Shown: positions 37-25,566 of the stretch, in pieces
Layout: every line of letters begins with the position of its first letter
Position numbering within the stretch: the stretch's first letter is position 1
NCBI GenBank assembly: GCA_016794485.1
Contig: JAEUHV010000517.1
Location: forward strand, 1 to 34,576
Reading direction: 5' to 3'
DNA: 34,576 nucleotides
From: Planctomycetota bacterium
GTDB lineage: Bacteria > Planctomycetota > UBA1135 > UBA2386
Translations under genes and position numbers: made by a program
The notes under the pieces: generated by a model
What the model was told of the DNA's origin: nothing
Database searches by the model: none
What the model saw: the letters and a program-made list of their open reading frames with translations, nothing else

Positions 37-411
37 ATGAACGGAATGCTAGCTGCCACCGACCAGTTGCCGCCCCTGGCCGTTCACCTGGGACTGGCCG
101 TCGCCATCCCGGCCGTGATCGCGCTGATCGCCGGCCGGTTGGCACCACGCAACCCCAGCGCCGCCAAGCTCCGCCCGTACGAATGCGGTGTGTCCGAGCA
201 AGGCGGGCCGGTGACCCGGATCCCGATCCGCTTCGCGCTGGTCGGAATGCTGTTCCTGGTGTTCGACGTCGAAGCCCTGTTCTTCTACCCGTGGGCCGTG
301 GTCGTGCGCGAACTCGGCACGCGCGGGCTCGGGATCATGTTCAGCTTCCTCGTCCTGCTCGTGGCCGGTTACGTCTACGCCCGCTCGCGCGGTGCTTTGG
401 AGTGGCGATGA
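37..411 (+). CDS. nuoA: NADH-quinone oxidoreductase subunit A
   Basis: This is a small membrane subunit of respiratory complex I, 124 residues long, which is the usual family length. It has three hydrophobic segments (about residues 13-33, 66-86 and 93-114). Family signatures are visible: YECGV at the end of the first loop and [14 protein letters not shown], which holds the conserved Asp and Glu near the quinone-site/membrane-arm junction. The ATG at 37 is the first good start; no clear ribosome binding site is visible in the 36 bases before it. Its stop codon overlaps the nuoB start in an ATGA, so the two are probably translationally coupled. It is the first nuo gene seen; what lies upstream is outside the window. 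Confidence 0.96.
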
Positions 412-911
412 ACGCACACGGTTCGCACGGCATTCCCGGGTCGCGCGCCGCGGCCCACGAGAAGGACGGTTCGTCGGGTTGGCTGCTGTCGCGCGGCGCC
501 GACTGGAGCCGCGAGAACTCGCTGTGGCCGGCGACGTTCGGCCTCGCCTGCTGCGCCATCGAGATGATGGCGACCGCGGCCGGCCGCTTCGACCTCGCGC
601 GTTTCGGCAGCGAACTGTTCCGCGCCAGCCCGCGCCAGGCCGACCTGATGATCGTGTCGGGTCGCGTCGCGCTGAAGATGGCGCCGGTGCTGCGCGAGAT
701 CTACGACCAGATGCCGGAGCCGAAGTGGGTCATCGCGATGGGCGACTGCGCGTCCTGCGGCGGCATCTTCAACAACTACGCGATCGTGCAGGGCGTCGAT
801 CGCCTGGTGCCGGTCGACGTCTACATCCCGGGCTGCCCGCCGCGCCCGGAAGCGCTGATCGACGCGGTGCTGAAGCTGAAGGACCGCATCGCCAAGCGGA
901 GCAAGGCATGA
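408..911 (+). CDS. nuoB: NADH-quinone oxidoreductase subunit B
   Basis: This 167-residue peripheral-arm subunit carries the last iron-sulfur cluster (N2), which passes electrons to quinone. The cluster ligands are visible: the tandem Cys48-Cys49 in [10 protein letters not shown], Cys114 in MGDCASCGG and Cys143 in PGCPPRPE. The start at 408 is chosen because it overlaps the nuoA stop (ATGA) and gives the normal family N-terminus. The frame is open further upstream, but that part is only the shadow of nuoA. The nuoB stop overlaps the nuoC start by four bases. Nothing unusual is seen in this subunit. Confidence 0.97.
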
Positions 912-1360
912 GCGACGCGACCTACTCCCTCGACCAGCTCGAGAAGGGCATCGGCCGCGACGGCATCGAAGGGCTGGTCGTCGACGCCGCGCGCTGGCGC
1001 GAGACCGCGGCGATGGTGCAGCGGTCCGGCTTCGTCCGCTTCCTCGACATCACCTGTGTCGACCATCCGAACGACGCGCAGCGGTTCGAAGTCGTGCTGC
1101 ACGTCTACTCGCCGCAGGGCAAGAAGTGGCTGCGGTTGCGCACGCGCACGCAAGGCCAGCTCGCAAGCCTGACGCCGGTCTTCGCCGCCGCCAACTGGTA
1201 CGAACGCGAAGTCTTCGACCTCTTCGGCGTGCGCTTCGACGGCCACCCGGACCTGACGCGCATCCTGCTGCCGGACGACTTCCCGTCGCATCCGCTGCGC
1301 CGCGACCACCCGCTCGGTGGCGAGCCGGTCGACTTCACCATCCTGCGGGAGGAGGCCTGA
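908..1360 (+). CDS. nuoC: NADH-quinone oxidoreductase subunit C
   Basis: This is a 150-residue hydrophilic complex I subunit (30-kDa family) that packs against NuoB and NuoD in the peripheral arm and carries no cofactor. The family signature is clear near residues 99-123: [13 protein letters not shown], then [14 protein letters not shown], then [11 protein letters not shown]. Its ATG lies in an ATGA overlap with the nuoB stop. It is a separate gene, not fused to NuoD as in E. coli. The stop is two bases before the nuoD start, whose ribosome binding site (GGGAGGAGG) lies inside the end of nuoC. Confidence 0.96.
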
Positions 1361-1362
1361 CC

Positions 1363-2559
1363 ATGCAGGGCACCCGGGAACGCACCGCGGACGGCCGCGA
1401 GACGATGCGCATCAACATGGGACCGCAGCACCCGTCGACGCACGGCGTGCTGCGGCTCGAGCTCGAGATCGACGGCGAGATCGTCGTGTCGTGCCGGCCG
1501 ATCATCGGCTACCTGCACACGGGCATCGAGAAGACGATGGAGGCCCGCAACTGGTTCCACGCGATCACGATGACCGATCGCATGGACTACCTGAACCCGA
1601 TGGGCAACAACCTCGCGTATGCCCTCGCGGTCGAGAAGCTGTTCGATTGCCGCATTCCCGAACGCGCCGTCGTCGCGCGCGTGCTGCTCGCCGAACTGAC
1701 GCGGATCAACAGCCACCTGGTGTGGGTGGGCACCAACGCGATGGACATCGGCGCCCTGTCGGTGTTCCTCTACACCTTCCGCGAACGCGAGACGCTGCTC
1801 GACCTGTTCGAGGAGGCGTCGGGCGCGCGCATGATGACGTCGTTCATCCGGCCGGGCGGCCTGGCGATGGACTTCCCGGACGGCTGGATGCAGCGCTGCA
1901 AGCAGGTCGTCGACGGCCTGCCGGCGCGCATCGACGAATACGAGGGCCTGCTGACGCACAACCCGCTGTTCAAGGAGCGCATGATCGGCATCGGCAAGCT
2001 CGCCGCCGACGATGCGATGGCGCTCGGCGTGAGCGGTCCGCTGTTGCGCGCCAGCGGCGTGCCACAGGACTTGCGCAAGCTGCATCCGTACTGCGGCTAC
2101 GAGACCTACGACTTCCGCGTCTGCACCGCCACCGCGGGCGACTGCTACGCCCGCTACCAGGTGCGCATCGCCGAACTGCGCGAGAGCGTCAAGCTCTGCC
2201 AGCAGGCCCTGGCCCGCATGCCGGGCGGCCCGGTGCGCACCGACGACCGCAAGGTGATGCCGCCGCTCCGCGCGGAGTTCCAGCACTCGATGGAAGCGTT
2301 GATCCACCACTTCAAGCACTACACCGAAGGGCTGCGGCCGCCGGCCGGTGAGGCCTACGCGCCGGTCGAGTCGCCGCGCGGCGAACTCGGTTTCTACGTG
2401 CGCAGCGACGGCACCGGCAAGCCGGTGCGCATCCACTCGCGCGCGCCGTCGTTCGCCAACCTGCAGGCGCTGCCGCTGATGGCCAAGGGCATGCTGATCG
2501 CCGACCTGGTCGCGATCATCTCGACCGTCGACCCGGTGCTCGGCGAGGTGGACCGGTGA
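1363..2559 (+). CDS. nuoD: NADH-quinone oxidoreductase subunit D
   Basis: This 398-residue subunit (49-kDa family) forms the quinone-reducing pocket with NuoB. The quinone-site loop is seen as NMGPQHPSTHGVLR at residues 18-31, followed by GYLHTGIEKTMEAR and the MDYLNPMGNN stretch typical of the family. The ATG at 1363 is supported by GGGAGGAGG ending about seven bases upstream. An internal ATG at 1405 would still keep the motif but lacks such a site. The stop overlaps a GTG start of the next gene (GTGA at 2556-2559). Confidence 0.97.
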   Translation: MQGTRERTADGRETMRINMGPQHPSTHGVLRLELEIDGEIVVSCRPIIGYLHTGIEKTMEARNWFHAITMTDRMDYLNPMGNNLAYALAVEKLFDCRIPERAVVARVLLAELTRINSHLVWVGTNAMDIGALSVFLYTFRERETLLDLFEEASGARMMTSFIRPGGLAMDFPDGWMQRCKQVVDGLPARIDEYEGLLTHNPLFKERMIGIGKLAADDAMALGVSGPLLRASGVPQDLRKLHPYCGYETYDFRVCTATAGDCYARYQVRIAELRESVKLCQQALARMPGGPVRTDDRKVMPPLRAEFQHSMEALIHHFKHYTEGLRPPAGEAYAPVESPRGELGFYVRSDGTGKPVRIHSRAPSFANLQALPLMAKGMLIADLVAIISTVDPVLGEVDR

Positions 2560-4439
2560 GCGGCGCACACACGGTGGACCACGCGAACCGCCAGAAGGTC
2601 ACGCTGTCGGCCGCCTGCCGCAGCGCGATCCAGGCCGAAGTCGCCAAGTACCCGAAGCCCCGCACGGCGTTGCTGCCGTCGCTGAAGCTCGCGCAGAAGG
2701 AAGTCGGCTGGCTGCCGCCCGAAGTCGTGGCGCAGGTCGCCGACCTCGTCGGCGTCTCGCACGCGCAGGCGCAGGAGCTGACGACGTTCTACTCGATGCT
2801 GCACACCGAGCCGCACGGCCGGCTGCACGTCGAAGTGTGCACGCAGGTGCCGTGCGGATTCATGGGCGGCGATCGCCTGGTGCAGCAGCTCGAGCAGGGG
2901 CTCGGCATCGCCGAGGGCCAGACCACGCCGGACGGCGGCGTGTCGCTGCACAAGACCGTCGAGTGCATGGGCGCCTGCCATCGCGCGCCGATGTGCCGCG
3001 TCGGCGACCACTACGTCGAGAGCGTGCGCGAACCGGCCGACGTGCAGGCGCTGTGCGCGAGCCTGAAAGCGGGCAAGGTCCCGGCCACCGCCGGAACCCG
3101 CAACCACGACTTCCATCCGGCCCCAGCCCCGGCGAAGGTCGGCGCCTCGGCCAACTACACGCCGATCCTGCTGCGCCACCAGCCGCGCACGACCCAGGTG
3201 TCGCTCGCCGAGTACCGCGCCGGCGGCGGTTACCAGGCGCTGGAGAAGGCGCTGCGGTCGATGACGCCCGACGCGGTCACCAACGTCGTCAAAGACGCCA
3301 ACCTGCGCGGCCGCGGCGGTGCGGCGTTCTCGGCCGGCATGAAGTGGAGCTTCGTGCCGAAGGTCCCGGGCCCGAAGTACCTCGTCGTCAACGCCGACGA
3401 GTCCGAGCCCGGCACGTTCAAGGACCGCGAGCTGATGGAGGTCGAGTCGCACATGCTGGTCGAGGGCATGGCGATCGCCAGCTTCGCGATCGGCTGCAAC
3501 GAGGCGTTCCTCTACCTGCGCGGCGAGTACGTCGAAGCCGGCGAACGCATGCGCGCCGCGGTCGCCGAAGCCAAGGCCGCCGGCCTGCTCGGCAAGGGCG
3601 TGCTCGGCACGAACTTCGACCTCGAGATCCACGTGTTCCTCGGGGCCGGTGCCTACATCTGCGGCGAGGAGACGGCGCTGCTCGAATCGCTCGAAGGCCG
3701 GCGGCCGATGCCGCGTTCGCGCCCGCCGTTCCCGGCGGTGGCGGGCCTCTACCAGCGGCCGACCGTCGTCAACAACGTCGAGACCATCGTCAACGTGCCG
3801 CACATCGTGCAGAACGGCGCCGACTGGTACAAGGCGATCGGACCGAACCCGAAGAGTGCCGGCCCGAAGATCTACTGCCTGTCGGGTGCCGTGAACCGGC
3901 CCGGCAACTACGAGCTGCCGCTCGGCGCCACGACGTTCCGCGAGCTGATCGAGAACCAGGGCGGCGGCGTGCGCGGCGGCCGCAAGATCAAGGGCGTGCT
4001 GCCCGCGGGCATCTCGGCGCCGATCGTGCCGGCCGACAAGCTCGACGCGAAGCTGGACTACGAAGGCGTGCAGGCCGCGGGTTCGATGCTCGGTTCGGCG
4101 TCGCTTATCGTGATTCCCGACGACGTCGACATCGTGCGCGCGGCGACCCGCATGGTGGAGTTCTTCCGCCACGAGTCGTGTGGCAAGTGCACGCCGTGCC
4201 GCGAAGGCGTGGCCTGGCTGCACAAGGTGCTGCAGCGCATCGAGGGCGGCCAGGGCAAGACCGAGGACATCGACTTCCTCCTGTCGCTGTCCGACCGCAT
4301 CGCCGGCAAGGTGCTGTGCGCGCTCGGCGATTTCGCGACGAGTCCGGTGAAGGCGACCATCGCCCACTTCCGCAGCGAGTTCATTGCGGCCATCACGGGT
4401 GGCCGTGGAGCCAGCGACGACTGGAGCAAGCGTTCATGA
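2556..4439 (+). CDS. nuoEF: Fused NADH-quinone oxidoreductase subunits E and F
   Basis: One 627-residue protein holds two complex I subunits that are normally separate. Residues about 15-172 are NuoE (24-kDa, thioredoxin-like), with the N1a 2Fe-2S ligands Cys95, Cys100, Cys137 and Cys141. A Pro/Ala-rich linker (about 175-205) leads into NuoF (51-kDa). This part shows the FMN/NADH-binding Gly-rich stretch RGRGGAAFSAGMKW (251-264), NADESEPGTFKDRE (279-292), GAYICGEETALLESLEG (365-381) and the N3 4Fe-4S ligands Cys542, Cys545, Cys548 and Cys588. It is the NADH-oxidising end of complex I. The start is a GTG overlapping the nuoD stop; no internal stop or frameshift separates the two halves, so this is a true in-frame fusion in the sequence given. 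Confidence 0.96.
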   Translation: MSGAHTVDHANRQKVTLSAACRSAIQAEVAKYPKPRTALLPSLKLAQKEVGWLPPEVVAQVADLVGVSHAQAQELTTFYSMLHTEPHGRLHVEVCTQVPCGFMGGDRLVQQLEQGLGIAEGQTTPDGGVSLHKTVECMGACHRAPMCRVGDHYVESVREPADVQALCASLKAGKVPATAGTRNHDFHPAPAPAKVGASANYTPILLRHQPRTTQVSLAEYRAGGGYQALEKALRSMTPDAVTNVVKDANLRGRGGAAFSAGMKWSFVPKVPGPKYLVVNADESEPGTFKDRELMEVESHMLVEGMAIASFAIGCNEAFLYLRGEYVEAGERMRAAVAEAKAAGLLGKGVLGTNFDLEIHVFLGAGAYICGEETALLESLEGRRPMPRSRPPFPAVAGLYQRPTVVNNVETIVNVPHIVQNGADWYKAIGPNPKSAGPKIYCLSGAVNRPGNYELPLGATTFRELIENQGGGVRGGRKIKGVLPAGISAPIVPADKLDAKLDYEGVQAAGSMLGSASLIVIPDDVDIVRAATRMVEFFRHESCGKCTPCREGVAWLHKVLQRIEGGQGKTEDIDFLLSLSDRIAGKVLCALGDFATSPVKATIAHFRSEFIAAITGGRGASDDWSKRS

Positions 4440-6274
4440 GCGATCTGGTCGAACTGACGATCGACGGCAAGAAGGTGTCGGTGCCGAAGGGAACGCTGCT
4501 CGTCGAAGCGGCGAAGACCGTGGGCATCGAGATCCCGGTCTTCTGCTACCACGAGAAGCTGAAGCCGGTCGGCGCCTGCCGCATGTGCCTCGTCGAAATC
4601 GAGAAGATGCCGCGCCTGCAGACCGCGTGCACGACGCCGGTCGGGCCGGGCATGGTCGTCAACACGAAGACGAAGGGTGCGGTCGACGGCCAGCAGTCGG
4701 TGCTCGAACTGCTGCTCGCCAACCACCCGCTCGACTGCCCGATCTGCGACAAGGGCGGCGAGTGCCCGCTGCAGGACAACTCCTTCAAGTCCGGCGGCAC
4801 CACGTCGCGGCTGGCAGAGCCCAAGCGCGCCAAGGAGAAGGCGCTGCCGCTGTCGGACACGATCGTGCTCGACCGCGAGCGCTGCATCCTGTGCTACCGC
4901 TGCACGCGCTTCCAGGAGGAGATTCCCGGCGATTCGGCGATCGTGCCGCTCGAACGCGGCGGCGAGAGCGTCATCGGCACGCTGACCGGCGAGTCGTTCG
5001 ATTCGCCATTCTCCGGCAACACGGTCGAACTGTGCCCGGTCGGCGCGCTCACGTCGCGCCAGTACCGTTTCCGCTCGCGGCCCTGGGACCTGCAGCACGT
5101 GCCGTCGGTGTGCAGCGGCTGCAGCGTCGGCTGCAACGTCCGCCTCGACGTGCGCGACGCGACGATCCTGCGCGTGCTGGCGCGCGAGAACAAGGCGATC
5201 GACGACGGCTGGCTGTGCGACACCGGTCGTTACCAGTCGCTGCCGCCGGCGATCACCGCCGCGCATGCCGGGCCCGAAGGCAAGAACCGCCGGGTGCGCT
5301 CGCCGATGGTGCGCGTGAACGGCACGCTGCAGAAGGCCACGTTCGCCGACGCCATCGCGCGCGCGGCCGCGTTGCTGCGTTCCGGCAAGAGTGCGATCGC
5401 GCTGTCGGCCCGGTTGACCGACGAGGCCTGCCAGGTCGCCGGCGCCGCCTTGCGCGGCGCGTTCCCGAACACGGCGATCGGCTTCATCGAGCCGGTCGTG
5501 TCGCCGTGGCCGGTGCAGGGCCGCATCCAGAACCTGGCGAAGGTCAAACGCATCGTCGACCTCGGTTGCGATCCGTGGCACACGCTGCCGATCCTGGCCC
5601 TGTGGCTGCGCAAGGCGACCACCGCCGGCGCCCCGCTCGTCGTGGTCGGGCCGGACAACGGTCTGTGGCGCGACAGCAAGCACTGGCTGAAGGTCGGGAA
5701 CGACGGCCTCGTCGCCGCTGCCGAAGCGCTCGCTGCGGCGCTGGCCGGCAAGCCGGCCACGCCGGAGGCGACCGCTGCCGCCGCCGCCCTGAAGGGCGAC
5801 GGCCCGGCCGCGGTGCTGCTCGGGGCGCCGTTCGCCGGCAACGCCAGGCTGCGCGCCGCCGCCGACGCGATCGCGCAGGCCCTCGGCGTCACTGCCGAGA
5901 CCGGTTTCCGCGGCGCGCCGCTGCGCGCGTTCAACGCGCGAGGCGCCGCCAACCACGCGCCCGAACTGGCGCGCACCGACGTGCTCGCCGGCAGCCCGCA
6001 GGTGGTGTGCTCGATCGGCTGCGACGCGCCGGTGGTCGTGCCGGGCGGCAAGGCGATCGTCGTCACCAGCGGGGCCGTTCCGGACTCCGCCGAGGTCGAA
6101 GTGGTGCTGCCGCTGGCGCACCCGTACGAGACCACTGGCCACGTCACCAACCTCGACGGCCAGCGCCAGGCGCTGCAGGCCGCCGGGCAACGGCCCGCCG
6201 ACGTGCGCATGGACCACGAACTGCTGCAGGCGCTGGCCAACGCCGCGGCCGTGCCCGCCGGAGGCCGCGCGTGA
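4436..6274 (+). CDS. nuoG: NADH-quinone oxidoreductase subunit G (short form)
   Basis: This 612-residue subunit (75-kDa family) carries electrons from NuoF towards NuoI. Ligands are visible for the N1b 2Fe-2S cluster (Cys37, 48, 51, 65), for N5 with its His ligand (His97, Cys101, 104, 110), for N4 (Cys150, 153, 156, 200) and for the extra N7-type cluster (Cys226, 229, 233, 261). The molybdopterin-oxidoreductase-like C-terminal part is reduced: the protein is much shorter than E. coli NuoG (about 908) or Thermus Nqo3 (about 783). The last 350 residues are Ala/Val-rich and weakly conserved. It is joined to its neighbours by ATGA (upstream) and GTGA (downstream) overlaps. Confidence 0.95.
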   Translation: MSDLVELTIDGKKVSVPKGTLLVEAAKTVGIEIPVFCYHEKLKPVGACRMCLVEIEKMPRLQTACTTPVGPGMVVNTKTKGAVDGQQSVLELLLANHPLDCPICDKGGECPLQDNSFKSGGTTSRLAEPKRAKEKALPLSDTIVLDRERCILCYRCTRFQEEIPGDSAIVPLERGGESVIGTLTGESFDSPFSGNTVELCPVGALTSRQYRFRSRPWDLQHVPSVCSGCSVGCNVRLDVRDATILRVLARENKAIDDGWLCDTGRYQSLPPAITAAHAGPEGKNRRVRSPMVRVNGTLQKATFADAIARAAALLRSGKSAIALSARLTDEACQVAGAALRGAFPNTAIGFIEPVVSPWPVQGRIQNLAKVKRIVDLGCDPWHTLPILALWLRKATTAGAPLVVVGPDNGLWRDSKHWLKVGNDGLVAAAEALAAALAGKPATPEATAAAAALKGDGPAAVLLGAPFAGNARLRAAADAIAQALGVTAETGFRGAPLRAFNARGAANHAPELARTDVLAGSPQVVCSIGCDAPVVVPGGKAIVVTSGAVPDSAEVEVVLPLAHPYETTGHVTNLDGQRQALQAAGQRPADVRMDHELLQALANAAAVPAGGRA

Positions 6275-7257
6275 ACGACCTGCTGATCAACCTGGCGCGG
6301 TCGCTGGTGCTGGTCGCGATCGTGATGACGGCGATGCCGTACACGACCTGGTTCGAACGGCGCGTGATGTCGTGGATGCAGTGCCGCGTCGGTCCCAACC
6401 GCGTCGGCATCTTCGGCCTGCTGCAGCCGCTCGCCGACGGGCTCAAGCTGCTGTTCAAGGAGGACATCACGCCGGCGAAGGCCGAACGCGTGTTGTTCTG
6501 GTTCGCGCCGACGATCGCGCTGTTCGCGGCGCTGGCGGCGGCCGCGGTGCTGCCGTTCGGCCCGACCGTGCACATCGCCGGTGCCGACGTGCCGATGGTC
6601 GTCGCCGACATGCCGGTCGGCCTGCTCTACCTGCTCGGCATGAGCTCGCTCGGCGTCTACGCGCTGGTGTTCGGCGGCTGGTCGTCGGGCTCGAAGTACT
6701 CGCTGCTCGGCGCGCTGCGCGCCGCGGCGCAGGTCGTCAGCTACGAACTCATCCTCGGCCTCGCGCTGGTCGGCGTGGTGCTGGTGCACGGCAGCCTGTC
6801 GCTCGGCGACATCGTCGCGTCGCAGCAGAAGATGGGTTTCTGGACGATCCTGCTGCAGCCGGTCGGCTTCGTGCTCTACCTGCTCGCCGCGTGCGCCGAG
6901 ACCAACCGTGCGCCGTTCGACCTGCCGGAGGCCGAGACCGAACTCGTGGCCGGGTACCACACCGAGTACACCGGCATGCGGTTCGCCCTCTACTTCATCG
7001 CCGAGTACATCAACATGTTCACTGTCAGTGCCCTGGCAGCGACGTTGTTCCTCGGCGGCTGGTCGGGACCGTTCTGGCCGGGGCCGCACTGGCTCCTGCT
7101 CAAGGTCGGCCTGTTCCTGTTCCTGTTCGTGTGGATCCGGGCGACCCTGCCGCGCCTTCGCTACGACCAGCTCATGCGGCTGTCGTGGTCGACGCTGCTG
7201 CCGTTGGGCCTGCTCAACATCGTGATCACGGCCGTGGCCGTGGTCGCCCTGCAGTGA
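6271..7257 (+). CDS. nuoH: NADH-quinone oxidoreductase subunit H
   Basis: This 328-residue membrane subunit forms the quinone entry channel and links the peripheral and membrane arms. About eight membrane segments are visible. Conserved loops are intact: WFERRVMSWMQCRVGPNRVG (27-46), GLLQPLADGLKLLFKED (49-65), SYELILGLALVG (157-168) and AETNRAPFDLPEAETELVAG (209-228), followed by HTEYTGMRFA. The start is a GTG in a GTGA overlap with the nuoG stop. Unlike NuoL and NuoN of this operon, no key charged residue is seen to be lost here. Confidence 0.97.
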   Translation: MNDLLINLARSLVLVAIVMTAMPYTTWFERRVMSWMQCRVGPNRVGIFGLLQPLADGLKLLFKEDITPAKAERVLFWFAPTIALFAALAAAAVLPFGPTVHIAGADVPMVVADMPVGLLYLLGMSSLGVYALVFGGWSSGSKYSLLGALRAAAQVVSYELILGLALVGVVLVHGSLSLGDIVASQQKMGFWTILLQPVGFVLYLLAACAETNRAPFDLPEAETELVAGYHTEYTGMRFALYFIAEYINMFTVSALAATLFLGGWSGPFWPGPHWLLLKVGLFLFLFVWIRATLPRLRYDQLMRLSWSTLLPLGLLNIVITAVAVVALQ

Positions 7258-7261
7258 CGCC

Positions 7262-7849
7262 ATGTTCGAAGAACTGAAAGCCCTGGCCCGCGGCATGTGG
7301 ACGACGTTCCGCCATCTGGGACGTGCGAAGAACACCGTCATGTATCCGGAGCAGAAGCGTCCGGTCAGTGAACGGTTCCGCGGCCGGCACAAGCTCTACA
7401 AGTACGAGAACGGCCTCGAACGCTGCATCGGCTGCCACCTGTGCGCGGCCGCGTGCCCGTCGCAGGCGATCTACGTCGGCGCCGCCGAGAACGACCCGAA
7501 GAACCCGGTCTCGTTCGGCGAGCGCTACGCGCAGCACTTCGAGATCAACATGCTGCGCTGCATCTTCTGCGGCTTCTGCGAGGAAGCGTGCCCGGTCGAA
7601 GCCATCCGGCTCGGCCCGGAGTACGAGCTCGCCGACCACACGCGCGAGAGCCTCGTCTACACGAAGCCGATGCTGCTCGAACCGGAGAAGTTCGCGCCGA
7701 AACGCCAGTTCCACGCCGACGTCGACGCCCACCGCGGGCGTGTCGGCGGGATGCCGGCGGGCGAGAAGTCGGTGGCCGGCGCACCCGACGGCCATCGTGA
7801 CACCCCGACGGGCGCGCGACCCTCTGCACGCAAGGACATCGGCGGATGA
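7262..7849 (+). CDS. nuoI: NADH-quinone oxidoreductase subunit I
   Basis: This 195-residue ferredoxin-like subunit holds the N6a and N6b 4Fe-4S clusters that carry electrons to NuoB. Both CxxCxxCxxxCP motifs are present: Cys55/58/61/65 (CIGCHLCAAACP) and Cys100/103/106/110 (CIFCGFCEEACP). After residue 150 there is a hydrophilic, Gly/Ala/Arg-rich tail of about 45 residues without clear family similarity, probably an extension. The gene begins four bases after nuoH and its stop overlaps the nuoJ start (ATGA). Confidence 0.96.
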   Translation: MFEELKALARGMWTTFRHLGRAKNTVMYPEQKRPVSERFRGRHKLYKYENGLERCIGCHLCAAACPSQAIYVGAAENDPKNPVSFGERYAQHFEINMLRCIFCGFCEEACPVEAIRLGPEYELADHTRESLVYTKPMLLEPEKFAPKRQFHADVDAHRGRVGGMPAGEKSVAGAPDGHRDTPTGARPSARKDIGG

Positions 7850-8373
7850 CGGATCGCATGGTCCCCCTGGCGATCGCGTGTGCGATCGCGTTGTTCTCGG
7901 CGCTCGGCCTCGTGCTGGCGCGCCGCATCGTGCACTGCGCCTGCCTGCTGCTGGTGCACAGCCTCGCGATCGCCGCCTGCTACCTGCTGCTCGCCGCCGA
8001 CTTCGCGGCGATGGGGCAGGTGATCGTCTACTCGGGCGCGATCGTCGTGTTGTTCCTGTTCGTCGTGCTGCTGCTGCCGCAGGACGGTGTGGAACCGAAG
8101 GCGCGTCCCGGACGACTCGCGATCGCTCTCGCCGGTGGCGGCGTGGTCGGCGCGGTGTTGCTGTCGGGGGCCACGGCGGTCGCCGCCGCCAGCGCGCCGG
8201 CAGCACCGGCGACGGTGGATTTCGAGATCAAGGGCATCGCGCGCTCCCTGTTCGGGCCGCAGCTGGTGCCGTTCGAACTGACCGCGATCCTGCTGCTGGT
8301 CGCGATCGTCGGTGGCGTCACCTTGTGGCAGCGCCACACCACGACGCGCAGCGACGCGGAGGGACGTCGATGA
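7846..8373 (+). CDS. nuoJ: NADH-quinone oxidoreductase subunit J
   Basis: This 175-residue membrane subunit has about five hydrophobic segments. The family core is visible: RRIVHCACLLLVHSLAIAAC, then MGQVIVYSGAIVVLFLFVVL, the TM3 region whose pi-bulge takes part in coupling in known complex I structures. A final membrane helix (VPFELTAILLLVAIVGGVTL) matches the family C-terminus. It overlaps nuoI upstream and nuoK downstream by four bases each, typical of this operon. Confidence 0.94.
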   Translation: MTDRMVPLAIACAIALFSALGLVLARRIVHCACLLLVHSLAIAACYLLLAADFAAMGQVIVYSGAIVVLFLFVVLLLPQDGVEPKARPGRLAIALAGGGVVGAVLLSGATAVAAASAPAAPATVDFEIKGIARSLFGPQLVPFELTAILLLVAIVGGVTLWQRHTTTRSDAEGRR

Positions 8374-8699
8374 TCGCACTCGCTGCTTCGCTCGTGTCGA
8401 CGCCCGAAGTGCTCGTGCTCGCCACCAGCGCCCTGCTGTTCACGGTCGGTGTCGTCGGCTTGCTGCTGCGGCGCAGCCCGATCGCGCTGTTGATGTCGAT
8501 CGAGATCCTGCTGAACGCCGGCAACCTGCTGCTCGTGCTCGGCGCCCGCGTGCGCAACCAGATCGACGGCCAGACCGCGGCGCTGCTGGTGCTGGTGCTC
8601 GGCGCCGCCGAAGCGGTGGTCGGGCTGGCGCTGGCCCTCGCGTTCTTCCGGCCGCGGCCGGATGCGGACATCGACTCGCCCGGTGAGGTGCAGGGATGA
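8370..8699 (+). CDS. nuoK: NADH-quinone oxidoreductase subunit K
   Basis: This 109-residue, three-helix membrane subunit related to MrpC contains both buried glutamates needed for proton transfer in the family: Glu45 in SIEILLNA and Glu81 in AAEAVVGLALAL. The start in the ATGA overlap with nuoJ gives the usual length; the frame is open further upstream, but only as a shadow of nuoI and nuoJ. The stop overlaps the nuoL start. Because NuoK is intact while NuoL and NuoN have lost key charges, changes in this operon seem confined to the antiporter-like subunits. Confidence 0.95.
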   Translation: MIALAASLVSTPEVLVLATSALLFTVGVVGLLLRRSPIALLMSIEILLNAGNLLLVLGARVRNQIDGQTAALLVLVLGAAEAVVGLALALAFFRPRPDADIDSPGEVQG

Positions 8700-10375
8700 A
8701 CTCGCTGCTGCCTTGGGCGTTCCTGTGCACGATCCCCGGCCTGTTGCTGCAGGCCCTGGGCGTCGGCCGCGCCGGCGTCGCCAGCCTGCTCGGTCCGATC
8801 GCGGTGTTGCTCGCCGGCGCCGCCTGGCTCGTGGGCGACCACGCGCCGCTCGTCGTATCGATCGCCGACTGGCTGCCGATGCTCGGCGACGGCACCTTCG
8901 CGCTGCGGCTCGACGCGCTCTCGGCGACGATGCTGACGGTGATCGGTGCGGTCGCTTCGTGTGTCTACGTCTATTCGCTGGCGTACATGCACGACGACCC
9001 GGGCCAGCGCCGCTTCTTCGCGCTGCTCGACTTCTTCGTCGCGACCATGTGCCTGCTGGTGCTGGCGGGCAACCTCGTCGTGCTGGTCGCCGGTTGGGCC
9101 GGCGTCGGCATCGCGTCGTTCCTGCTGATCAGCTTCTGGCGCGACAAGGAAGGCACGCTCGGCGCCGGCATGCAGGCGCTCGCCGCGAACGCGATCGGCG
9201 ACGCCGCCCTGCTGCTCGCCGTCGTGCTGTTGCCACGCGGCCAGGCCGACCTGGTCAACCTGCACGCGCTGGTCACCCCGACCGGCACCTCGGGCGCCAC
9301 CATGATCGGCGCCCTGCTGGTCGTCGCCGCCGCCGCGAAGTCGGCGCAGGGGCCGCTCTACTTCTGGCTGCCGAGCGCGATGGCGGGCCCGACGCCGGTG
9401 TCGGCCCTCATCCACGCCGCGACGATGGTCGCAGCGGGCGTCTACCTGCTGTGCCGCACGCACCTGGTGTTGGCGCAGGCGCCCGACGTGCTGCACGTGG
9501 TGGCCTGGCTCGGCGTGCTGACCGCGCTGGTCGCGGCGATCGCGAGCCTGCAGCAGACGAACTACAAGAAGGGCCTCGCCTACAGCACGCTGTCGCAGCT
9601 GGGCTACATGTTCGCCGCGATCGGCTTCGGTGCGCCGTTCGCCGCGTTCTTCCACCTGTTCACGCACGCGTCGTTCAAGGCGCTGCTGTTCCTGGTCGCC
9701 GGCATCGTCATCCACGCCACGGACGGCGAGGAAGAACTCGGCAAGCTCGGCGGCCTGCGCGGCCAGCTCGGTGCCACGGCGTGGCTGGCGTTGGTCGGTT
9801 CGCTGGCGTTGATCGGACTGCCGATCGCGACCGCGGGTGCGTTCAGCAAGGACCTCGTGCTCGAGGCCGGACTCGAACACGCGCCGATGCTCGGCTACCT
9901 GCTGCTCGGGGGCGTGGTGCTGACCGGGCTCTACACCGGGCGGCTCTGGTTCGCGGTGTTCGGCCGCAGCGACTCGAAGCTGCACGCGCACGCGCCGGGC
10001 CTGCTGCTGCTCGGTCCGGTGGCGCTGCTCGCCGTCGGTGCCGTGGTGCTCGGTTGGACCGGCAACCCGCTCGGCGAAGTGCTCGCCCCGGCACTCGGCA
10101 AGGCGCCCGAGGTGCACGCCTGGTCGACGCTCGGTGCGATCGCCGGCGGCCTCGGTCTCTGCGGCTTCGTGCTCGCCGGTGCCTGGGTCAAGGCCAAGGG
10201 CAGCGGGGCCGCACTGCCGTCGTTCCGCGGCTCGTGGGTCGACGTCGCCAGCGGCGTCTCCGACGGGGTCGCCCGTCTCGTTGCGTCGGTGCACGACGGC
10301 CGCGTCGTCACCGCGATCGTGTTCTCCTTGTTCGGCGCGGGCATCGTGACGCTCGTGACCGTGCTCCGTCACTGA
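8696..10375 (+). CDS. nuoL: NADH-quinone oxidoreductase subunit L (atypical)
   Basis: This 559-residue antiporter-like proton-pumping subunit of the distal membrane arm is recognised by KSAQGPLYFWLPSAMAGPTP (215-234), the following SALIHAATMVAAGVYL, YKKGLAYSTLSQLGYMFAAIG and GAFSKDLVLEAG. Channel residues kept are Lys215, His240, the Lys of GAFSKD and Asp169. Two conserved positions are changed: the Glu of GWEGVG is Ala135 (GCC at 9098-9100) and the Arg of NRVGD is Ala166 (GCG at 9191-9193). It is about 50 residues shorter than E. coli NuoL, mainly in the C-terminal part that normally includes the long lateral helix. It overlaps nuoK by four bases. The gene after it is nuoN, not nuoM. Confidence 0.95.
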   Translation: MNSLLPWAFLCTIPGLLLQALGVGRAGVASLLGPIAVLLAGAAWLVGDHAPLVVSIADWLPMLGDGTFALRLDALSATMLTVIGAVASCVYVYSLAYMHDDPGQRRFFALLDFFVATMCLLVLAGNLVVLVAGWAGVGIASFLLISFWRDKEGTLGAGMQALAANAIGDAALLLAVVLLPRGQADLVNLHALVTPTGTSGATMIGALLVVAAAAKSAQGPLYFWLPSAMAGPTPVSALIHAATMVAAGVYLLCRTHLVLAQAPDVLHVVAWLGVLTALVAAIASLQQTNYKKGLAYSTLSQLGYMFAAIGFGAPFAAFFHLFTHASFKALLFLVAGIVIHATDGEEELGKLGGLRGQLGATAWLALVGSLALIGLPIATAGAFSKDLVLEAGLEHAPMLGYLLLGGVVLTGLYTGRLWFAVFGRSDSKLHAHAPGLLLLGPVALLAVGAVVLGWTGNPLGEVLAPALGKAPEVHAWSTLGAIAGGLGLCGFVLAGAWVKAKGSGAALPSFRGSWVDVASGVSDGVARLVASVHDGRVVTAIVFSLFGAGIVTLVTVLRH

Positions 10376-10396
10376 TCCCCAAGCCCTCCGCAATCC

Positions 10397-11719
10397 ATGT
10401 CCTGGTTCCTCGAACTGGAACGCAGCCTGCAGGCAGCCGCCGTGCTCGGCGTGCTCGCAACCCTGGTGTTGGTCGGGGCGGCGAAGTGGTCGGCGCAGAT
10501 CGTCGCCGGGCTGGGCGTCGCCGCCACGGTGCTCGCCGCGGTCCCCGCGATCGCGACGCCGACTGCGGCCACCTTCCCCCTGTTGATCGTGCTGTCGGCC
10601 GCACTGCTGTGCGTGCTGCTGGTGCGCCACGACGAACTCGCCGACGAACGGCATCGCGCCGAGACCACGGCCCTCATCCTGTTCGGCTCGGCCGGCGCCT
10701 GTGCGCTGGTGTCGGCCACCAACCTGCTGACGATCCTGGTCGGCTTCGAGTCGATGTCGCTGTCGGTCGCGGTGCTCGCCGGCATCGGCCGCGGGGAACG
10801 TTCGCTCGAGGCCGCGTTCCGCTTCTTCGTGCTCGGCGCGATCGCCGCAGCACTGCTGGTCTACGGCACGGCGCTGCACTTCTACGCCACCGGCTCGCTC
10901 GAGGTCGGTGCGCCCGCTGTGGCCGGCGACGGCTTGCAGCAACTGCGCACGATCGGGCATCTGCTGCTGCTGCTCGGCGTGTCGTTCGAACTGGCGGTGG
11001 TGCCGCTGCAGTTCGGGGCTCTCGGCGTGATCCAGGCCGGTCCGATCGGCGGCGTCGGTTTCGCGATGACCGTGTCCAAGGTCGGTGCCGCGTTCGCGCT
11101 GGGCCACGTGGTGGGCGGCGAACGGCTGCAGCAGGACGTGCTGGTGGCGCTGGCGGTGACGACGATCGTGTGGGGCACCCTCGGTGCGCTCGCGCAGCGG
11201 ACGTTGCGCGGCCTGCTGGCGAACTCGGCCGTGGCGCAGGGCGGGTTCGTGGCACTCGGCATCGCCTGCGGTGCAGGGGCCCACGCCACCGTGTGCTTTT
11301 ACCTCGCGGTCTACGTCGCGGCCTCGGCCCTGGTGCTCGCGGCGATCAGTGGCGACGGTGACGAGATCGACCTCACCACGATGCGGTCCCGGCCGCTCGG
11401 CACGATGCGGCGCCTGGCCCTCGTGGCCGGCCTGATGTCGCTGGCGGGCATGCCGCCCACCCCTGGCCTGCTCGCGAAGTTCCTGGTCCTGGCGCGCAGC
11501 TGGGAGACGGCGGGAATGTCGTGGACGGTCGTCGCGGCGCTCGGTGGCGTGTTCGGCGCGCTCTACTACATGCGGCCGGTGCCGGACCTGCTGTCCGGCG
11601 GGGCGCCGATCGACGGGCGGTCGCAGCCGACGTTCGGCGTGCGCATCGCGATCGTCGCGGCGGCCGTCGTCACCGTGGTGTGCACCGTGGCGCCGTACGC
11701 CGCGATGCGGCTCGCCTGA
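10397..11719 (+). CDS. nuoN: NADH-quinone oxidoreductase subunit N (divergent)
   Basis: This 440-residue antiporter-like membrane subunit is placed as NuoN by FRFFVLGAIAAALLVYGTAL (141-160) and MSLAGMPPTPGLLAKFLVLA (347-366). The TM5 Glu is present (Glu118, VGFESMSLS), as are the middle Lys (Lys228 in TVSKVGA) and the TM12 Lys (Lys361). However, the TM7 region, normally GFKLSLVPFHLWTPDVYQG, reads SFELAVVPLQFGALGVIQAG: the channel Lys is Glu198, the His is Gln205 and the WTPD loop is lost. The His of the family SSIAHLGY motif is also Gln. It starts 21 bases after nuoL, ends the operon, and stops three bases before the convergent sigma-factor gene. Confidence 0.88.
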   Translation: MSWFLELERSLQAAAVLGVLATLVLVGAAKWSAQIVAGLGVAATVLAAVPAIATPTAATFPLLIVLSAALLCVLLVRHDELADERHRAETTALILFGSAGACALVSATNLLTILVGFESMSLSVAVLAGIGRGERSLEAAFRFFVLGAIAAALLVYGTALHFYATGSLEVGAPAVAGDGLQQLRTIGHLLLLLGVSFELAVVPLQFGALGVIQAGPIGGVGFAMTVSKVGAAFALGHVVGGERLQQDVLVALAVTTIVWGTLGALAQRTLRGLLANSAVAQGGFVALGIACGAGAHATVCFYLAVYVAASALVLAAISGDGDEIDLTTMRSRPLGTMRRLALVAGLMSLAGMPPTPGLLAKFLVLARSWETAGMSWTVVAALGGVFGALYYMRPVPDLLSGGAPIDGRSQPTFGVRIAIVAAAVVTVVCTVAPYAAMRLA

Positions 11720-18351: not shown

Positions 18352-18873
18352 CTACCGGCCCGAGCCGGTCGCGCGCAGCAACGCCTGCAGCCGCTGCAGG
18401 GCACGCTTCAACCGGGTGCGCACGGTCTCGACGGGAACGTCGAGTTGCTCGGCGATGCGGGTCGGCAGCAGGTCGTCGAAGAAGCGCAGTTGCACGACGG
18501 TGCGGTAGTCGGCGGGCAACTGGTCGACGGCGCGCCGCAGCCGTTCAGCCTGGTCGGGGTCGAGCGTCGCCGCGTCGGGGTCGAGGCACAGCCCGCGCGC
18601 GACGGCCTGCTCGCGCAGCAGGCGGCGCTGCCGGCCGCGCAGGGCCTGCAGCGCGAAGTTGCGGACCACGGCCGCGAGCCAGCCGCGCGACAGGCCGTCG
18701 AGCCAGCCGGTCCCCTGGCCCTGCGCGACCGCGGCCAGCCAGGTGTCCTGCGCGGCGTCGTCCGCGGCCTGCGGATCGCGCAGCAGACGGCGCGCCAGCG
18801 ACCGCACGAAGTGGTCGTCGGCCGGGAATCCGGCGGGGTCGGTCGGGGTGGGAGTGGGCTCGGGCAAGGACAC
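18352..18873 (-). CDS. ECF-type RNA polymerase sigma factor (second)
   Basis: A 173-residue sigma factor with region 2 (RRLLRDPQAADDAAQDTWLA and VVRNFALQALRGRQRR) and region 4 (LPADYRTVVQLRFFDDLLPT, then RIAEQLDVPVETVRTRLKRA). The start is taken as the GTG at 18873; there is no strong ribosome binding site and no better in-frame start nearby. It is upstream of the spermidine-synthase-like gene with a 14-base gap and divergent from the MotA/TolQ/ExbB-like gene. No kinase or anti-sigma gene is adjacent, unlike the first sigma factor here. Confidence 0.88.
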   Translation of the reverse strand: MSLPEPTPTPTDPAGFPADDHFVRSLARRLLRDPQAADDAAQDTWLAAVAQGQGTGWLDGLSRGWLAAVVRNFALQALRGRQRRLLREQAVARGLCLDPDAATLDPDQAERLRRAVDQLPADYRTVVQLRFFDDLLPTRIAEQLDVPVETVRTRLKRALQRLQALLRATGSGR

Positions 18874-18985
18874 CGGGAAGATGCCGCGCGGCCCCGGACC
18901 GGTTCACGCCAGGCGGGAAATCCTGTGCGCGATGAACCGGTTGCCGCCCTTGCGGCATTCCCCAGGCGTCTCCCACGAGGTCCCA

Positions 18986-19663
18986 ATGCCCATCGCCTGC
19001 TTCGCCGCCGCTGCCGTCGTTCCCGTTCCCCGTCCCCCTGCGGACGGTCTCTACGGCCTGTTTCTCGAGTGCGGCGTCGCCGGCCCGGTGTTGCTGTTGC
19101 TCGGCGTCGTCGCGGGTTGGAAAGCCGTGGTGCGTTGGCTCGCCCTGCGGCCGCAGGTGCTGGCGCCCGACGGCCTGCAGCGAGGCCTCGAACAGGCGCT
19201 GCGTTCCGGCCAGATCGCGAACGCGACCACCCTGTCGACCGCGAGCGGCTCGGCGCTCGGGCGGTTGGTCGCCGCCGGGCTCCTGCTCCGCGCCGGCGGA
19301 CTCGACGAGATGCTGGCCAACTGCGAACGCGCGGCGATGCAGCAGGCGATGCTGCGTCAAGCGGGTGCGGCGAGCCTCGCGCGCTTTGGCACCGTGATCC
19401 TGCTGTTCGCCGTGTTCGGCACGGTCACCGGGGTGATGAGTGCGCTCACGGTGCTCGAGTCGATGAAGGAGCCGACCGTGCAACTGACGATGACCGGCAT
19501 CCGCGAGGCGCTCGGCTGCACCGCGATCGGACTCGCCTTGTCGACCTGCTGTTTCCTCGCGTGGTCGCTGCTCGCCAGCCGCGCCGCGGCCGGCCTGCAC
19601 CGCGTGCGCGAGATCGCCGAGGAACTGCTCGCCGAAGCGGCTCGTCCCGATCGTGCGGGCTGA
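18986..19663 (+). CDS. MotA/TolQ/ExbB-family proton channel protein
   Basis: A 225-residue inner-membrane protein with the three-helix layout of the family: one helix near residues 24-48, a cytoplasmic helical stretch rich in Ala and Glu, and two helices near 132-160 (ARFGTVILLFAVFGTVTGVM) and 180-205. The TM2-TM3 pattern with TMTGIREALGCTAIGLALST matches ExbB/TolQ. ExbB/TolQ work with an ExbD/TolR partner to drive outer-membrane processes with the proton gradient, but no partner gene is adjacent. The ATG at 18986 is chosen because GAGG lies seven bases upstream; an in-frame ATG at 18932 is possible. The next gene is convergent with an 8-base gap. Confidence 0.82.
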   Translation: MPIACFAAAAVVPVPRPPADGLYGLFLECGVAGPVLLLLGVVAGWKAVVRWLALRPQVLAPDGLQRGLEQALRSGQIANATTLSTASGSALGRLVAAGLLLRAGGLDEMLANCERAAMQQAMLRQAGAASLARFGTVILLFAVFGTVTGVMSALTVLESMKEPTVQLTMTGIREALGCTAIGLALSTCCFLAWSLLASRAAAGLHRVREIAEELLAEAARPDRAG

Positions 19664-20028: not shown

Positions 20029-20385
20029 GGGGATCTCCTGGCTGGCTGCTGTTGCCAAGCCTGACGATGCGGTTACGGGGCGTGTTCCGTCTCTGCGCAC
20101 AATTCTCCACCGTGGGTGGGAAGTGCGGCCCGAGGGGCGGGGGTGATTGCTCGCATGCTGCGCGGGCGGTTCCCGGGTTCGCACGGGGACTTGCGATGTG
20201 CAGCTGGGGCCGCGCGCGGCCGGCGATTCCGGTTTCGTGGACGCGTGTGCACGCGGAAATGCGACATCCGCGCGCGGCCGCGGCGGCCGGCCTCCGGCGC
20301 AACCAGCTTGCCGACGGCGCGAGCGACGGAGCACAGAACGCAAGCGATGCTGGCGAGGGCGCGTTCGCGACCGCATCCTGACTGC
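20029..20385. other. Intergenic region between divergent genes
   Basis: About 357 bases separate the start of the YegP-like gene (- strand) from the start of the large synthetase (+ strand). It must hold the promoters of both. It contains a perfect 14-base palindrome (GGCCGCGCGCGGCC, near 20208-20221) that may be only a product of high GC. No convincing -35/-10 pair, RNA gene or small reading frame is visible. The synthetase reading frame is open through most of it, so an earlier start such as the ATG at 20347 cannot be excluded. Confidence 0.5.
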
Positions 20386-23300
20386 ATGCTGTTGACGGAT
20401 CTCCTGGCGCGCGCGGTCGATCGGTTCGCGGAGCACGCGGCCGTCGACATCCCGCCGGGGCCCGGTCGACCGACGCGCACCGTGCTGACGTTCGCGCGGC
20501 TGTCGGCGATGGCGGATGCCGTCGCGGGAGATCTCGCGCCATTCGTGCACGGCGAAGCGATGGTGCTGGTGCTGTTGCCGCGCACGAGCCCCTGGCTGGT
20601 TGCGGCCCAGATCGGCGTGCTGCGGGCCGGGGCTGCGTTCGTCTGCGTCGATCCGTCGCACCCGGATGCGCACATCGCCCATGTCGCCCACGATGCCGGG
20701 CCCAGAGCGGTGCTCACCGACGCGGTCGGTCTGCCGCGGGTGCGCGGCCTCGGTGCAGCGGTGCTCGAACTGCCCACGGGTGGAGCCCGGCGGACCGCAG
20801 CGGCACCGCACCCACGGCCGCCATGGCAGGTGCCGACGACCCTCGCCTACGCGATCTACACCTCGGGAACGACCGGCAAGCCGAAGGGCGTGTTGCTCGA
20901 ACACGCCGGCGTCGTGAACCTGATCACGCGCGGCGTGCAACGCTTCGGGCTCGGCCCTGGCGATCGGGTCGCGCAGGGCAGTTCGGCCGCCTACGACTCG
21001 TCGATCGAGGAGTCGTGGCTGCCGCTCGCGAGCGGTGCCACGCTCGTCGTGCTCGACGACGCGACCGTGCGCGCCGGACCCGACCTCGCGCCCTGGCTGC
21101 GCCGCGAGCGCATCACCGTGTTCTGTCCGCCGCCGACGTTGTTGCGCGCGATGGACGTGCGCTCGCCGCGCGACGAGCTGCCCGACTTGCGGTTGTGCTA
21201 CGTGGGTGGCGAAGCGCTGCCGCAGGACCTCGCCGATCTGTGGGGTGCCGCGCTGTGGCTCGAGAACGGCTATGGGCCGACCGAGTGCACCGTCACCGTC
21301 GTGCGTGGCCGCGTGCACCCGGGCCGTCCGGTCGGTATCGGGCAGCCGGTGGAACCGCACGTCGCGTGGCTGCTCGACGAAGACCTGCAGCCCGTGCGCG
21401 ACGGCGAGGTCGGCGAACTCTGCCTCGCGGGCCCCGGGCTGGCACGCGGCTACCTCGGCTTGCCGGACCTCACGCAGCAGCGCTTTCCGGTGTTGCCCGG
21501 CATCGGTCGCGTCTATCGCACCGGCGATCTCGCCCGGCGCGGCCCCGACGGCGAGCTCACGTGCCTCGGACGCATCGACAGCCAGGTGAAGGTGCGCGGC
21601 CATCGCATCGAACTGGAAGCGATCGAGAGCGTGCTGGCCCGCTGCGACGGGATCCGCGAGGCCGCGTGCCGCACGCAGGACGAGGGCGGACAGAACGTGC
21701 TCGTCGCCCACGTCGTTCCGGCCGTGCCGGGGCCGATCGATGCGGTGGCACTGGCGGCGTCCGTGCGCGCGGTGTTGCCCGAGGTGATGGTGCCGACGCG
21801 GTTCGGAACGTTGGCGACGCTGCCGCGCACGATCGGCGGCAAGGTCGACCGCAAGGCGTTGCCGATCCTGGCTCCGACGGCTGTGGCCGCTGCCGGTGCC
21901 GTGGCGTGGCAGCCGACGACCGGACGCGAGCAACGGTTGCGCGCCCGTTGGGCGCAGGTGCTGCAGCTGCCCGAAACGGCGATCGGCGAGTCCGACGACT
22001 TCTTCGCGCTCGGCGGCAACTCACTGCGCGCGGCGATGCTGGTGTCGGCCCTGCGCCGTCTTGGCGACGACTCGGCGATCGCGGTGCGCGACCTCTACGA
22101 GTGCCCGACGTTCGCGGCGTTCGCGGCGCGGGTCGCGGCGAACACGGCCGGGCAGGCGACCGCAACCACCGCGGGCACCGGCGAGACGGCGCGCGGGCCA
22201 GCGTCCCGAGCGGAGGCGGTCGGAGCAGCGCGGCCGCGGCCGTTCTTGTTCACGCTCGTGCAGATCGGCTACCTGCTGGCCCTGCTCGCCGCCGCTTCGG
22301 CGGTCGCGTGGGCCGCAGGCTTCGTGCTGCTGCCGTGGGCGTTCACCAGCTTCCGGCTCGAACTGCTCGTGCTGCTGTTGCCGTGGTTCGCGGCCCTTGG
22401 CCTGTGTGCCTACACGCTCGCGACGGCGTGGCTCGCAGTGGCGGCGAAGGAACTGCTCATCGGCCGCTACCAGGCCGGTCGCTGGCCCGCGTTCTCGGGG
22501 TTCCATGCGCGCCATTGGCTGGTCGTCCGGTTCGTGCGCCTCGTGCCGTGGTCGTTGCTCGAAGGCACCGAGGCGAAGAACGTCGTGTTGCGCATGCTCG
22601 GCGCGCGCATCGGCCAGCGTGTGCACGTGCACAAGGGCGTCGACCTGCTGTGCGGTGGGTTCGACCTGCTCGAACTCGGCGACGACGTCACGCTGCAGCG
22701 TGAAGTCGATCTCGGGCTGTGCGTGCTCGACCGCGGCGAACTGGTGCTCGGCGCCGTGCGCATCGGTGCGGGCGCAACGTTGGCGACGCGGGCCGGCACC
22801 GCCGGCGACGTCGAGATCGGGGCGGGCGCAGTCGTCGCGCCGCTGGCGTTCGTCGACGCGGGTGCCCGGGTACCGGCCGGTGAACGTTGGCACGGCGTGC
22901 CGGCGCGACCGGGCGGCGCAGCACCGCAGCCGGCCGTGGTCGACGTCGTCGGCGCCGAACTGCCGCCGTGGTGGTACACGGTGCTGCTGTTGTCGGCACG
23001 CGTACTGTGGGCGCCGCTGGTCGCGGCTCCGTTCACCCTGGTGCTCTGGTCGGTCGCAGCCGCCGCCGGTGTCGACGGCCGGGCACTCGTGCTGTGGTTG
23101 TGCGGCGAGGGACCCTGGTCCCATCCCGGCTGGGTGGTCGCGACGGTGGTGTTGGCCGTCGTCGGCCTGCCGGTCGCGCTCGTCGCACAGGCGCTGGCGC
23201 TGCGCTGGTCGCCGCGCATCCCGGCCGGCACGCACGCACGCTGGTCGTGGCTGCACCTCCAGCAGCAGGTGCGCACCGAACTGCTCGAATCGGCCGGCAC

Positions 23301-25509: not shown

Positions 25510-25566
25510 TAGAATCGACACTTGCACTCAATGAGTTCGGATTGTAAATCCGATCTTCAATCTGAA
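25510..25566 (+). promoter_or_regulatory. AT-rich leader with adjacent palindromes
   Basis: The region before the ATPase gene contains a -10-like TAGAAT (25510-25515) and then three palindromes placed side by side: ACTC-AAT-GAGT (25526-25536), TCGGATT-GTA-AATCCGA (25537-25553, perfect 7-bp arms) and TTCA-ATC-TGAA (25556-25566, running into the start codon). They would form hairpins in the mRNA leader or a cluster of operator half-sites. The middle one equals a tRNA-Tyr anticodon arm in shape (5-bp stem, loop TTGTAAA). No good -35 box is visible, so the promoter itself is weakly supported. Confidence 0.5.

Follow-up and report, generated by a model that had tools for sequence, protein, structure and literature searches.

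Complex I of the canonical 14-subunit type, such as the Nuo enzyme of Escherichia coli, has three antiporter-like subunits (NuoN, NuoM and NuoL), and the number of these modules varies among its relatives. The 2M complex I (Chadwick et al. 2018, cited in PMC7117926) carries an additional second NuoM. In the archaeal sulfane sulfur reductase MBS and in Mrp, two antiporter-like subunits are joined by a shorter HL helix (PMC7684303).

The planctomycete operon described here, together with its relatives (the M-less type), shares with E. coli Nuo the other subunits, the gene order, the NADH module, the E-channel residues and the antiporter-like family of NuoL and NuoN. It differs in having no NuoM, in a NuoL whose linker is about 46 residues shorter and that has lost the TM5 Glu and gained a TM4 Asp, in a NuoN that often carries K217E, and, in the window, in the fusion of NuoE and NuoF. 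Whereas 2M complex I adds a second NuoM, the M-less type removes the only one (none is encoded in the window operon). Two antiporter-like subunits and a shorter HL helix are features in common with MBS and Mrp; however, neither of these is an NADH:quinone oxidoreductase, MBS differs in its Na+ module and in the opposite placement of the peripheral arm, and the window operon consists of Nuo subunits only, including the NADH module, which places it outside the MBS/Mrp group. A search of the open-access literature for lacking, missing or absent nuoM found no paper, and an earlier mention could be present in the original 2M complex I paper. Within the open-access literature searched, this NuoM-free complex is apparently undescribed.

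Gene content of the operon

The window, the whole stretch of 34,576 nucleotides that was analysed, is contig C204 of a 5.94-Mb draft planctomycete MAG (605 contigs, 83% complete). Its nuo operon lies on the plus strand at positions 37–11,719 in the order nuoA-B-C-D-EF-G-H-I-J-K-L-N:

37–411, plus strand: nuoA; matches NCBIfam NuoA models below their cut-offs; D79/E81 (E. coli numbering) of the E-channel present
408–911, plus strand: nuoB; 57% identity to E. coli NuoB; CC and GCPPRPE cluster-N2 motifs; start inferred
908–1,360, plus strand: nuoC; tblastn match to E. coli NuoCD; start inferred
1,363–2,559, plus strand: nuoD; TIGR01962, 547 bits, above cut-off; start inferred
2,556–4,439, plus strand: nuoE-nuoF fusion; TIGR01958 146 bits and TIGR01959 585 bits, both above cut-off
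4,436–6,274, plus strand: nuoG; TIGR01973 439 bits, just below the cut-off of 470
6,271–7,257, plus strand: nuoH, GTG start inferred; PF00146 E=6e-125; E157, D213, E216, E220, E228 and E241 present
7,262–7,849, plus strand: nuoI; TIGR01971 above cut-off
7,846–8,373, plus strand: nuoJ; matches NuoJ models below their cut-offs; Y59 present
8,370–8,699, plus strand: nuoK; E36 and E72 present
8,696–10,375, plus strand: nuoL of the M-less type; PF00361 E=3.9e-62; TIGR01974 407.4 bits against a cut-off of 407.5; TM5 Glu replaced by Ala, R175 by Ala, new TM4 Asp (D112), short lateral-helix linker
10,376–10,396, plus strand: 21-nt spacer in place of nuoM
10,397–11,719, plus strand: nuoN of the M-less type, TM7 Lys (K217) replaced by Glu; PF00361 E=2.1e-32; TIGR01770 170 bits against a cut-off of 332.6

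An earlier note on this DNA had read nuoM as missing from an otherwise whole operon, and this reading holds: the other subunits lie upstream in canonical order, and exactly 21 nt (10,376–10,396) separate the TGA stop of nuoL (10,375) from the ATG of nuoN (10,397). The NADH module (E, F, G) is present, with the E and F models above cut-off and NuoG just below, as are all genes of the quinone module and E-channel (B, C, D, I, H, A, J, K), with their key acids kept. Of the three antiporter-like subunits of complex I (N, M, L), only L and N were found, and no NuoM lies between them in 13 clusters of this type.

NuoE and NuoF form a single ORF, with TIGR01958 (nuoE) matching at its residues 25–169 and TIGR01959 (nuoF) at 210–613. 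The fusion also appears as one continuous match in a second planctomycete (G017), and several Chloroflexota M-less operons have separate E and F stretches. The curated NCBI models fail for both NuoL (407.4 versus 407.5 bits) and NuoN (170 versus 332.6), and annotation pipelines can miss the M-less type, its NuoN scoring about half the NCBI cut-off. Downstream of the operon, the window encodes a MotA/TolQ/ExbB match (18,659–19,663), a 1,781-aa ORF with AMP-binding, PP-binding, hexapeptide, HGSNAT_cat and DUF418 matches (20,116–25,461), and an AAA_14/DUF4143 ATPase (25,566–26,756).

Distribution across three phyla

Comparison of gene order in relatives, which the earlier note had proposed as a check, revealed the M-less order in two related planctomycetes and seven Chloroflexota, and a J-K-L-N cluster in three genomes of a third phylum. 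In G003, from the same genus as the window, the contig begins in nuoG, and NuoL and NuoN are 87% and 79% identical to those of the window; in G017, from another genus of the same family, the M-less operon is complete, with identities of 60% (L) and 45% (N). The proteins of two further loci, L081 (SXPB01000286) and L082 (BJHM01000032, in a planctomycete bin that carries the label hypo/CL500-15), are those of G003:C278 and G017:C32, respectively. A scan of 34 genomes of the family recovered the window's genome (G000), G003 and G017, plus a fragment in G005 that was left uncounted because it holds only the C-terminus of NuoN, at a contig edge. Among 392 sampled Planctomycetota, the NuoN profile gave 806 bits for the window and at most 168 bits for all else.

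Beyond Planctomycetota, a contig scan pointed to two MAGs, G431 ('Deltaproteobacteria') and G430 (Chloroflexi). The NuoL profile then picked out G615 (735 bits) and G616 (723 bits) among 195 genomes of the phylum of G431, where the next score was 386, and eight M-less genomes (629–701 bits; next 411) among 400 of the phylum of G430. Overall, M-less NuoL scores 629–954 bits against at most 411 for canonical NuoL, a clean gap. Seven of the Chloroflexota have the complete operon from A to L plus N, and the contig of the eighth (G834) stops inside NuoL. G431, G615 and G616 have the J-K-L-N cluster with the remaining subunits elsewhere; the best NuoH of G431 lies on another contig, beside NuoG, and is 59% identical to that of the window, versus 47% for the NuoH of the genome's other complex.

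In each of the 13 M-less clusters that extend as far as NuoN, its start lies −4 to +21 nt from the stop of NuoL, and a separate NuoM match lies near the canonical NuoN in at least 36 of 39 control loci, so that the L-N junction goes beyond chance. All M-less genomes are drafts or MAGs, and given the fragmented and 83% complete source of the window, one might suspect an artefact of assembly or binning, or a recent deletion in one strain. Yet the same junction occurs, with clade-specific residues, in independent assemblies from three phyla, and we regard such an origin as extremely improbable. A recent or local loss of nuoM is ruled out by this conservation across three phyla.

Several observations stand beside this distribution. 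A Chloroflexi MAG has a NuoN of the M-less type (K217E) at a contig edge (L083:126–1463), its other NuoL being canonical; the operon may be split here or the contig misbinned, and the locus was not counted as an operon because the contig edge hides whatever precedes NuoN. The NuoL proteins of G431, G616 and G615 (L125, L171, L172) have a long, charged, low-complexity C-terminal tail past TM16. G431 also encodes, at C1:189–202 kb (L123–L124), a complex I that has a pair of NuoM-like genes but lacks E, F and G in its vicinity. With a 2M-like and an M-less complex together, this one genome covers both extremes of antiporter number.

Linker, residues and descent of NuoL and NuoN

The lateral helix, located in the linker between TM15 and TM16 of NuoL, normally clamps the row of antiporter subunits. 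As estimated from hydropathy, the TM15–TM16 spacing is 53–75 residues in the M-less type (median 59, n=13) and 83–141 in controls (median 105, n=43), without overlap, which makes the M-less linker about 46 residues shorter; in the single 2M complex the spacing is 132. Four wrong-frame headless NuoL sequences (G003h, G005h, G017h and G028h) were excluded from the spacing and residue statistics. Because the AlphaFold2 model of NuoL has low confidence (mean pLDDT 59, below 50 in the linker region), the linker claim rests on the hydropathy spacing; the closest solved structures to M-less NuoL are canonical NuoL/Nqo12 chains. The model of NuoN (pLDDT 81) has the NuoN fold, with a TM-score of 0.84–0.88 (query length) to bacterial NuoN structures. 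The short linker is an independent sign of an M-less enzyme designed to hold fewer modules. The earlier note had argued that without NuoM the usual docking of NuoL would be impossible, and this fits the shortened linker in every M-less NuoL.

Both subunits also have residue changes. The TM5 Glu of NuoL (E144) is Ala, Thr or Ser in all 14 M-less sequences, non-acidic in all seven of a Chloroflexota group (L181–L187), and Glu in the 38 other controls; R175 is Ala or Met in 14 of 14. A TM4 Asp (D112 in the window) is found in every M-less NuoL (14/14) and in none of 45 others, and the losses of D241 and K169 are specific to the M-less type. In NuoN, the TM7 Lys (K217) is Glu in nine of 13 M-less sequences and Lys in 39 of 39 controls.

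Such losses raise the possibility of a largely non-pumping complex I, in which L and N would be structural remnants and the enzyme mainly an electron relay, like an NDH-2 bypass. The absence of the TM5 Glu and R175 from L and of K217 from most N is in its favour, as is the report that substitutions of E144 in E. coli NuoL affected enzyme function (PMC3046159). However, K229, H254, H334, K342, K399 and D178 of NuoL are kept in 14/14 M-less sequences, and E133, K247 and K395 of NuoN in 13/13. The E-channel acids are retained as well: in A, H, J and K, each residue that was tested is conserved in all of the aligned genes, with a Glu/Asp exchange at H218. Moreover, L and N are under purifying selection, with dN/dS between the window and G003 of 0.23 for L and 0.29 for N (0.31 for K, 0.23 for J and 0.10 for I). 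A largely non-pumping enzyme is thus unlikely.

Two quick trees both unite the M-less NuoL proteins in a single clade (SH-aLRT 100); the first tree included an outlier (G690x) and two wrong-frame headless rows, and the second was built without these three. A FastTree built on the concatenation of B, D and H likewise brings the M-less operons together, with the NuoH of G431 (C15) as the deepest member. The NuoL proteins L181–L187 are each followed by a NuoM in Chloroflexota and have lost the TM5 Glu and R175, which are otherwise universal in controls. Loss of E144 as a consequence of the loss of NuoM was rejected, given that this M-containing clade has lost E144 too. When the M-less clade and L181–L187 were constrained to be together, the likelihood was above that of the free quick tree, and the joint clade was not rejected (p-AU 0.87). 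On this basis, NuoM may have been lost after the TM5 Glu of NuoL, which is suggestive only.

A headless second complex I and the proposed enzyme

The earlier note had proposed searching the genome for nuoM and for a second nuo operon, and both were found, together. The genome of the window has five antiporter-like proteins with PF00361, namely L and N of the window and a further L, M and N from contig C550, and no stand-alone nuoM in the same search; the sole M sits in an operon of a headless complex I. C550 (K-L-M-N) and C320 (A-B-C-D-H-I) appear to be the two halves of this second operon. The headless 11-gene order A-B-C-D-H-I-J-K-L-M-N, which lacks E, F and G, occurs on single contigs in G003, G005, G017 and G028, with J and/or K missed by tblastn in each.

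The headless complex I, with M but no E, F or G, is the complement of the M-less type. The two are found together in planctomycetes and, judged by contig gene content (some contigs being partial), in seven of the eight Chloroflexota, where the headless complex has its own L, M and N; in G638 the second complex carries E, F and G. This complementary pairing of an NADH module without M and an M without NADH module recurs in two phyla. The headless complex repeatedly accompanies the M-less one at L227, L229–L232 and L234, and at L041–L043.

This arrangement bears on the choice that the earlier note had left, between a nuoM elsewhere and a reduced complex. A nuoM does exist, on C550, but it is placed between L and N of a separate, headless operon. 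NuoM could in principle be supplied in trans from there to give an assembled enzyme with three modules, as another complex with NuoM is present in the window's genome, G003, G005, G017 and the eight Chloroflexota. Against this, the M of the headless operon already has its own L and N as partners, and the linker of every M-less NuoL is far below three-module length. In addition, G615 (a draft or MAG) has one NuoH, one NuoF and, as strong PF00361 matches, L and N only, plus one weak match (E=1.4e-8). Supply in trans therefore seems quite unlikely. Three findings favour the reduced complex: the conservation of the operon in three phyla, the short linker throughout the M-less type, and the restriction of strong PF00361 matches in G615 to L and N.

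We conclude, with a probability of roughly 0.78, that this operon specifies a real and stably inherited form of complex I that has two antiporter modules, N and L, and that likely pumps fewer H+ per NADH. The odds are somewhat better than even that these enzymes are a subfamily of complex I in their own right, with exactly two antiporter modules and with a NuoL without the TM5 Glu as the terminal one. In such an enzyme, L would sit directly next to N, held there by its shorter lateral-helix linker. Both the E-channel (H, A, J, K) and the passage of electrons from NADH to quinone would be expected to work normally. The drive would then pass to N, and from N to L, along a rewired charge axis in which L lacks the TM5 Glu and has a new TM4 Asp, and N often has Glu for the TM7 Lys.

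In the domino model, as reviewed, one proton is moved by each of the three modules and by the E-channel, and a proton from TM12 of N or M is required to reach TM5 of the neighbour (PMC10212512). Removal of ND4-ND5 was reported to halve pumping, and channel substitutions gave 0 or 4 (PMC11496545). From these two sources, the output of a two-module enzyme would be expected to fall below the canonical 4 H+ per NADH, to about 3, or to 2 if L has no working channel. Fewer proton channels, which the earlier note had suggested, follow from the gene content, and the number of protons pumped would probably be lower as well.

Such a lower gear may allow NADH to be oxidised when the proton-motive force is high or the quinone is of low potential. 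Menaquinone is common in Planctomycetota and Chloroflexota and provides less energy per NADH than ubiquinone, so that a lower gear would be useful in these organisms. The gear-ratio idea, put forward for the additional modules of 2M complex I, would thereby be extended in the opposite direction.

How many protons are moved per antiporter-like subunit, and whether all of them exit via NuoL, is disputed. An enzyme that is without one module and without the TM5 acid of L, and that is under selection in three phyla, offers a natural test of both points. If true, a two-module subfamily would contradict the domino step from TM12 of N to TM5 of the neighbour, and would operate at about 3 H+ per NADH.
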